A stretch of DNA of 15,031 nt, taken from NCBI GenBank assembly GCA_018830405.1, contig JAHJSF010000079.1:1-15031 (forward strand). Direction: 5' to 3'. This stretch comes from Nitrospinota bacterium. Lineage in GTDB: Bacteria; Nitrospinota; Nitrospinia; UBA9942; JAHJSF01. The translations under genes were made by a program, and so were the position numbers. The notes under the pieces are model-generated. The model saw only the letters and a list, made by a program, of their open reading frames with translations, searched no databases and had not been told where the DNA came from. Shown here one piece after another: positions 854 to 15,031 of this stretch. Position 1 is the first letter of the stretch, and each line of letters starts with the position of its first letter.

Positions 854-1012
854 TATCCAGAGCATCATAACTTAGTATACCTTCGTTGCTCCTTGGCTCT
901 TCGTTATACAACCCCCTATCCCCCTTTGTTAAGGGGGAATAAGGGGGTTGTATAACGCCTCACCCCTCGCCTTCGTTGCGCCTCGGTCTACTTTTTTCTG
1001 ATGCCCTGACAA
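854..1012. repeat. Palindromic repeat element, family B copy 1 (B1), with core palindrome
   Basis: This element fills nearly all of the D-B gap, ending 8 bp from the B stop codon and 26 bp from the D start. Its ends are imperfect inverted repeats: about 25 bp from 857 matches the complement of the right end, sharing CAGrGCATCA and AGTAnACC. A second copy, B2, lies at 9427-9552. The two share the left arm (GTATACCTTyGTTGCTCC..., from 875) and the right arm (CGCCTTCGTyGCGCCTCGG followed by TCTACTTTTTTCTGA). The arms also contain a direct repeat of about 18 bp, CCTTCGTTGCkCCTyGGy. The centre (906-953) is the 48-bp C-run/G-run palindrome also found in the family A elements. The exact ends are uncertain by a few bases. 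Confidence 0.75.
906..953. repeat. 48-bp core palindrome, copy 1
   Basis: The left arm is ATACAACCCCCTATCCCCC and the right arm AGGGGGAATAAGGGGGTTGT followed by AT. They form a long hairpin with a short loop and a two-base asymmetry between the C-runs. The same 48 bp recurs exactly at 2503-2550, and the first 46 bp recur at 5785-5830. In this copy the pairing extends outward to CGTTATACAAC on both sides. Confidence 0.9.
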
Positions 1013-5693: not shown

Positions 5694-5730
5694 ATAAACT
5701 AATTCCTACCTAAGGATAAATTTTATTTAA

Positions 5731-5880
5731 TACGAAGTCGCATTCAAACGCTAACTGCGTTGGCTTCGTCATCAGCTCCTCAACATACAACCCCCTATCC
5801 CCCTTTGTTAAGGGGGAATAAGGGGGTTGTGCGTCGCTTCCTCCTTGCCGCCTTGTTATCATTTTGAATACAACTCCGTA
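5731..5880. mobile_element. 150-bp MITE-like palindromic element, family A copy 2 (A2)
   Basis: This is the second copy of the A element, exactly 150 bp, in the same orientation as A1 and with 7 mismatches to it. Terminal inverted repeats are as in A1 with one extra difference on the right. It is flanked on both sides by TAA (5728-5730 and 5881-5883), again consistent with a 3-bp target duplication, or with TA if the end bases are counted as target. The core palindrome occupies 5785-5832 and is identical to the other copies over its first 46 bp. The element lies wholly between the E stop and the C start. Confidence 0.8.
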
Positions 5881-5909
5881 TAAACCACGGGTCGCCCCGG
5901 GCCGCCAAG

Positions 5910-9392: not shown

Positions 9393-9426
9393 ATAATACC
9401 GTCTTCTGTAATGGTTTTTAACATCC

Positions 9427-9552
9427 TATACAAAGCGACATAAATTTGTATACCTTTGTTGCTCCTTGGCTCTTCGTTACGGCGTATGCTAAATACGCCT
9501 CACTCTTTGCCTTCGTCGCGCCTCGGTCTACTTTTTTCTGACGCTCTGTATA
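9427..9552. repeat. Palindromic repeat element, family B copy 2 (B2), without the core palindrome
   Basis: The ends are inverted repeats, TATACAAAGCGACA on the left against TATACAGAGCGTCA on the complement of the right. The similarity continues inward to GTAnACC, about 20 of 27 positions. Both arms match B1 closely (GTATACCTTTGTTGCTCCTT, then GGCTCTTCGTTA on the left; CGCCTTCGTCGCGCCTCGGT on the right). The centre differs: instead of the 48-bp core there is a small hairpin, GGCGTAT-gctaa-ATACGCC (9481-9499). TA at both ends suggests a TA target duplication. It lies in the transcribed leader if the promoter proposed at 9632-9659 is right. Confidence 0.75.
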
Positions 9553-9631
9553 TATCTTGTCTCCGCCAAACCCTCCTAAATCAGCGGGGGGGAGAGACCA
9601 ACTTAAAACTTCACAAAAACACATCCAGTGA

Positions 9632-14791: not shown

Positions 14792-14834
14792 CCCTTAATC
14801 CTTTACCTTTAACAACCCGCTTTGATTCCCCCCT

Positions 14835-14872
14835 AATCTCCCCTCTTTGGCAAAGAGGGGCTAGGGGAGATT
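14835..14872. repeat. Long hairpin upstream of the histidine kinase gene
   Basis: AATCTCCCC and TCTTT on the left pair with AAAGA and GGGGAGATT on the right around a GGC loop, with a 7-nt bulge (14857-14863). A competing register pairs CCCCTCTTT (14840-14848) with AAAGAGGGG (14852-14860). It would lie in the 5' leader of the kinase mRNA, about 45 bp before the start codon. Confidence 0.7.
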
Positions 14873-14878
14873 TCATAA

Positions 14879-14908
14879 ATTCTATTGTTTGACTCTAATA
14901 ACCTTCAA
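14879..14908 (-). promoter_or_regulatory. Candidate promoter of the histidine kinase gene
   Basis: On the minus strand TTGAAG (14903-14908) and TAGAAT (14879-14884, 5 of 6) are 18 nt apart. A start near 14872 would place the 14835-14872 hairpin at the very 5' end of the kinase mRNA. Confidence 0.4.
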
Positions 14909-14910
14909 AT

Positions 14911-15031
14911 CCCCCTTCATCCCCCTTTTCTAAAGGGGGAATTATAGCAGATTCCCCCTTAATTCTTCCCCACTAACAAAGGGGAACAGACCTCTTATTC
15001 CCCCTTAACAAAGCCTCCCATTAAGGCGACA
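14911..15031. repeat. Cluster of degenerate C-run/G-run palindromes
   Basis: A perfect 9-bp hairpin TCCCCCTTT-tct-AAAGGGGGA lies at 14920-14940. TTCCCC/GGGGAA pairs at 14966-14971 and 14981-14986. The 20 bp at 14994-15013 (CTTATTCCCCCTTAACAAAG) exactly match the complement of the core palindrome found in the ATPase operon, so a rearranged or partial core lies here. The window ends before any further gene. Confidence 0.65.

Follow-up and report, generated by a model that had tools for sequence, protein, structure and literature searches.

Small repeats nested within one another are known from bacteria. Pneumococcal BOX, RUP and SPRITE elements insert into one another, and the middle module of BOX, boxB, may be missing or present in several copies while the ends stay constant (PMC3049150). 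Rickettsia palindromic elements (RPE) are palindromic repeats that lie in frame within genes (PMC10969869, PMC2229807), Correia/NEMIS and other TA-ended miniature inverted-repeat transposable elements (MITEs) have terminal inverted repeats with TA at or near their ends, and YPAL of Yersinia inserts in or beside dyad symmetry (PMC2229807). Here we describe a short hairpin, the core, in a 15,031-nt contig of a Nitrospinota bacterium (JAHJSF010000079.1, referred to in full as the window; G000:C50 of a 1.42-Mb metagenome-assembled genome (MAG) that comprises 185 contigs and is 87% complete). The repeats that carry it are assembled from exchangeable parts, with one hairpin in the tips of at least three otherwise largely unrelated families. 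We propose that the core was probably captured several times at the loops of palindromic, MITE-like families A, B and C, and that the resulting composites were then amplified.

This arrangement resembles the described systems only in part. Unlike boxB, a tandem module of one family, the core is found at the apex of several arm families, where it replaces the loop. A core-like copy in a relative recalls the RPEs, but these are ~105-150 bp long, whereas the core measures 44 bp and comes from another bacterial lineage, and the likeness is one of description. Families A, B and C differ from Correia/NEMIS-type MITEs in that their arms pair along most of their length and carry an exchangeable apical module, with no related transposase found, and YPAL (168 bp) generates target duplications of 3-26 bp (PMC2229807), whereas none was seen here. 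A literature search for the core sequence itself returned no relevant paper, and the part of the literature that was searched holds no account of a single core that caps several palindrome families for which matched core-less forms also exist. The repeated capture of one core by the tips of unlike palindromes looks like a new form of such nesting.

One core at the apices of three palindrome families

A 42-bp sequence, CAACCCCCTATCCCCCTTTGTTAAGGGGGAATAAGGGGGTTG, occurs exactly at 909-950, 2506-2547 and 5788-5829 and nowhere else in the window, where the expected count is 0 (200 shuffles). The 48-bp stretches at 906-953 and 2503-2550 are identical, and that at 5785-5832 differs by two bases. The sequence-only reading had taken all 48 bp as the core; that stretch is real in the sequence, but comparison with free-standing copies indicates that the outer AT/TA is context and that the constant unit is ACAACCCCC...GGGGGTTGT, 44 bp, at 908-951 (full sequence ACAACCCCCTATCCCCCTTTGTTAAGGGGGAATAAGGGGGTTGT; the other two copies are at 2505-2548 and 5787-5830, none with an assigned strand). 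Overall, we give the length of the core palindrome as 44-46 bp.

The three copies sit at the apices of larger palindromes, all on the plus strand: a family B composite, B1 (854-1008), and a family A composite, A1 (2448-2602), both delimited by arm similarity, alignment to core-less forms and folding, and a second family A composite, A2 (5730-5884), recognised by arm similarity and 95% identical to A1. A further family B element, B2 (9427-9552, plus strand), has terminal inverted repeats TATACAAAGCGACA.../...CTGACGCTCTGTATA and no core. The B1 arms (847-906 and 955-1008) match those of B2 (9420-9479 and 9495-9548) at 83-89%, and alignment of filled and core-less B elements places in the middle of B2 the original apical hairpin, GGCGTAT-GCTAA-ATACGCC (9481-9499, no strand assigned), which is the portion replaced by the core. 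Stem pairing continues beyond the core (CGTTATACAAC/GTTGTATAACG in B1, CGACATACAAC/GTTGTATGTCG in A1), and both composites fold far better than their dinucleotide shuffles (z = -6.3 for B1 and -7.9 for A1; B2 folds moderately, z = -2.4). Hence a common core between A and B arms, a different hairpin in the other B copy and outward pairing of the flanks, all noticed in the sequence-only reading, were borne out.

A third family, C (~165 bp), carries the core at its apex elsewhere in the genome and has no copy in the window. All three families (~125-165 bp) have the attributes of MITEs, being short and non-coding, with TA-ended terminal inverted repeats (TA at or near the ends) and tens of dispersed copies. 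The inverted repeats of B are TATACAGAGCGACA...CTGTCGCTCTGTATA, of the type CAGAGCGACA, and those of A and C are similar. Genome-wide, the 18-bp inner hairpin of the core (CCCCCTTTGTTAAGGGGG) occurs 91 times exactly and 127 times when up to two mismatches are allowed, against 0 and 2 for a reversed-pattern control. We sorted 104 core places by the similarity of their flanking arms, working from stretches around matches: 39 of them belong to A, 5 to B and 18 to C, and 42 lie outside these families.

Core-less copies exist in every family and carry a small, family-specific apical hairpin of their own. There are three in A (L055, with CGACATAC-caaaca-GTATGCCTGTGTCGC, L047 and L051), ~28 in B (B2 and ~27 others) and ~20 in C, including shorter matches (L127, L130, L131, L135, L136, L139 and L140 were aligned; apex GCCATAG-gccct-GCTATGGC); these counts come from match lists and are approximate, and core-less forms are the majority in B and C. 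Flanks of 45 bp from different families are 28-33% identical without gaps, which is chance level, while from family to family the cores are essentially unchanged (89-95% when counted without gaps, a figure depressed by length variants). Local similarity between A and B is equalled by 40 of 500 shuffles, and that between B and C is also within shuffles. Collecting the copies, clustering their flanks and mapping the junctions, as the sequence-only reading had suggested, thus gave several arm families with a constant core, together with arms that lack it. Neither of the grounds it had named for simple descent was found: more than one arm family carries the core, and the resemblance of A to B does not exceed that of shuffles.

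Mapped on core-less references, the core junctions fall at 58|73-76 of 124 in A and 69-76|85-94 of 163 in C; those of B are at 53|69-70 of 129, or 65|69 where the orientation is reversed (L087, L090). Junction midpoints lie at 0.47-0.54 of element length in all three families, the only exceptions being L050, with one arm trimmed, and L003, whose left arm is incompletely or poorly aligned. The loop between two TA steps is replaced in filled A (CGACATA[CAAC...GTTG]TATGTCGC), filled B (CGTTATA[CAAC...GTTG]TATAACGCC) and filled C (GCCATA[CAAC...GTTG]TATGCTACGG), and no target duplication was seen at nested copies when filled and core-less forms were aligned. Of the two possibilities raised in the sequence-only reading, an exchangeable module is better supported than one that is independently mobile in its nested form, because the loop is replaced and not interrupted, and because the core subtype that prevails in nested positions (TAT/AATAA, below) did not turn up in intact form among 11 two-ended copies outside the families.

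Cores fall into subtypes set by the linkers on either side of the inner hairpin. Family A contains TAT/AATAA, TTATT/ACTTGA (L050, L101) and TATT/ACTTTGA (L042), family B contains TAT/AATAA (B1, L002) and TCAT(T) (L087, L090), and family C contains TAT/AATAA, the intact form of which dominates nested positions in all three. Judged by these sequences, different subtypes entered A and B separately, with at least six family-by-subtype acquisitions, a minimum counted by subtype and not from a tree. The core of L042 probably entered a core-less A element separately, because L042 retains the CCTGT of core-less A that A1-type copies have lost. Composites have also multiplied. The assembly is a draft, and one-armed copies could be assembly joins, but this is an unlikely origin for composites that have an arm on each side and lie in different surroundings on many contigs.

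Shorter-armed A derivatives (L094, L139, L029, L052, L050) end at TAAC or GTTATC, as would fit deletions between short direct repeats common to the core end and the arm. An A-type subfamily (L182, L185, L049) has a longer, multi-hairpin centre of ~110 bp and a left arm trimmed at CGCTAAC. Centres can also be flipped, as seen at L040 and in the family C apex, which occurs in both orientations.

Cores outside the families and in relatives

Core repeats also stand alone in genes and intergenic DNA. In outside copies with intact ends, ACAACCCCC and GGGGGTTGT are constant, and beyond them no base is; their flanks show weak palindromy, with pairing at positions 2-4 in 5 of 11, which is not used as evidence. 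At L166 (G000:C39, 470 to 589), four inner hairpins form a tandem array with a period of exactly 34 bp (CCCCCTTTGTTAAGGGGGACTTGAGGAAACTATT) and an A-arm fragment at the end.

Of the 77 genomes examined from the phylum, 10 contain the inner hairpin, and the core was found in genomes from the same order and in some others from the class. An exact 31-bp core occurs on one contig in GTDB r220, from a Nitrospirae MAG (the genome's own or very near records may have been omitted), suggesting that the precise form is narrowly distributed and the inner hairpin more widely. None of 39 relatives, all from outside the genus, yielded A arms, and viral contigs gave no exact 28-bp match. Within a gene of one relative from the same order (G003 C20), a core-like insert keeps the frame open (FAKDDNPLNPPLLRGTKGVVSPS), and the orthologues read FAKGTVNSPS (G005) and FAEWTVNSPS (G006) without it; further cases of presence and absence in orthologous genes are G003 C201 and G002 C139. 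In-frame inserts with insert-free orthologues, as in RPEs, are thus seen in relatives only, not among the window copies. Another insert, at L240 (G002:C129), is apparently in frame (RRNSPLTKGGRGLLEDA) in a gene that, from its sequence, looks like a type III restriction-modification methylase. Core-like hairpins also cap other palindromes, of the CACTTCCAAA...TTTGGAAGTG type in G011 and G008 and of yet another type at L161.

Possible routes of entry and rival readings

Simple descent would make A, B and C diverged forms of one core-bearing palindrome, in which selection or conversion preserved nothing but the core. In its favour, each family is a long palindrome with TA-like ends, the core subtype is the same in all three, and the inner arms of A and C agree over ~26 bp adjoining the apex, a similarity reached by 2 of 500 shuffles. 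Nonetheless, the A-B and B-C comparisons stay within shuffles, core-less forms with family-specific loops occur in all three families, different subtypes and junctions occur inside A and inside B, and cores occur outside palindromes. We consider simple descent very improbable and reject it, whereas modular capture with amplification of composites is supported. It is also improbable that cores merely pass between palindrome tips by ectopic recombination or gene conversion, with the free-standing copies unlinked. Such exchange would suit the flipped centres and the TAT/AATAA subtype, which A, B and C have in common and which the two-ended outside copies lack, but subtypes of the outside copies recur at apices: ACTTGA occurs in A and also in L085 and L175, and TCATT in B and also in L106.

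Alternatively, the core may be a miniature transposon whose transposase strongly prefers hairpin loops or palindromic targets, with the loop lost afterwards. YPAL offers a precedent, since its targets span or adjoin dyad symmetry (PMC2229807), and the defined ends of the core, its copies outside A, B and C, the gene insertions in relatives and the TA flanks in all three contexts are consistent with this idea. We regard it as unlikely, however, given that no target duplication was seen in nested copies or at the inspected orthologous sites of relatives, that free-standing copies have no constant target base beyond their ends, that the loop is replaced in aligned nested cases, and that searches for Y1_Tnp and DDE_3 found no cognate transposase. 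The single Y1_Tnp gene of the genome (IS200-like, RAYT-type; G000:C26) has GGGGTCAGGTCTTGC repeats on its flanks (L141:1321-1480 and 2310-2345). These repeats form a system of their own, and neither the core nor any of the three families borders the gene; an origin of the core as a RAYT-linked repetitive extragenic palindrome (REP) or REPIN is rejected on this ground. REPs are defined by a GTAG or CGTC tag beside the hairpin (PMC3733652), and the free-standing cores instead have constant ACAAC ends and no constant outer base.

Several observations weigh against repeated capture and amplification. The entry step was not observed, and may have been loop replacement (by template switching or hairpin-tip joining) or transposition. 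A and C may be partly related through their common inner arm, such that their two acquisitions would not be wholly independent. The 11 two-ended copies outside A, B and C include no intact TAT/AATAA that could have been the source of the nested subtype. No transposase could be tied to the core, A, B or C when Y1_Tnp and DDE_3 were looked for, and no DDE_3 gene (IS630-type) was found in the 87%-complete assembly, other DDE families not having been searched. Lastly, orthologous sites in relatives show 10-25 bp replaced, and not a clean empty site.

If capture and amplification are correct, the core would belong to a family of small, dispersed G5/C5 hairpin repeats with constant ends and variable linkers, and it would have replaced the apical loops of A, B and C at symmetric stem positions. 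Entry may have occurred while the hairpin tip was cut or in single-stranded form, with 2-4 bp of common sequence (TA/TAC) used for template switching or end joining; this would explain loop replacement, symmetric junctions and the lack of target duplications. The A+core and C+core composites would then have multiplied as units, with A, B and C moving as MITEs by a transposase supplied in trans, and some composites would later have lost parts of their arms via short common sequences (TAAC/GTTA, TTGT). As a tentative and rather doubtful extension, hairpin tips may be capture sites in themselves, where an extruded loop is cut, or a copying strand switches, and a small hairpin is joined as a new cap. 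If true, palindromic repeats would evolve by cap exchange, a route apart from transposition. One genome shows how composite palindromic repeats arise, with arms and apex that have separate histories, and three arm families in filled and unfilled forms provide a natural test of hairpin-tip repair or recombination. They offer the same for the way in which MITE-like repeats of bacteria, rarely shown by experiment to move, become mosaics.

Surroundings of the repeats in the window

B1, A1 and A2 occupy the larger gaps of a V/A-type ATPase operon (subunits D, B, A, C, E, K and I by Pfam, minus strand), and B2 is positioned just upstream of it; the stretches concerned are 828-1020, 2401-2576, 5694-5909 and 9393-9600. 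The elements could act as RNA hairpins between cistrons. At the end of the window (14832-15031) are looser G5/C5 hairpin repeats (AATCTCCCCTCTTTGGCAAAGAGGGG..., CCCCCTTAACAAAG).
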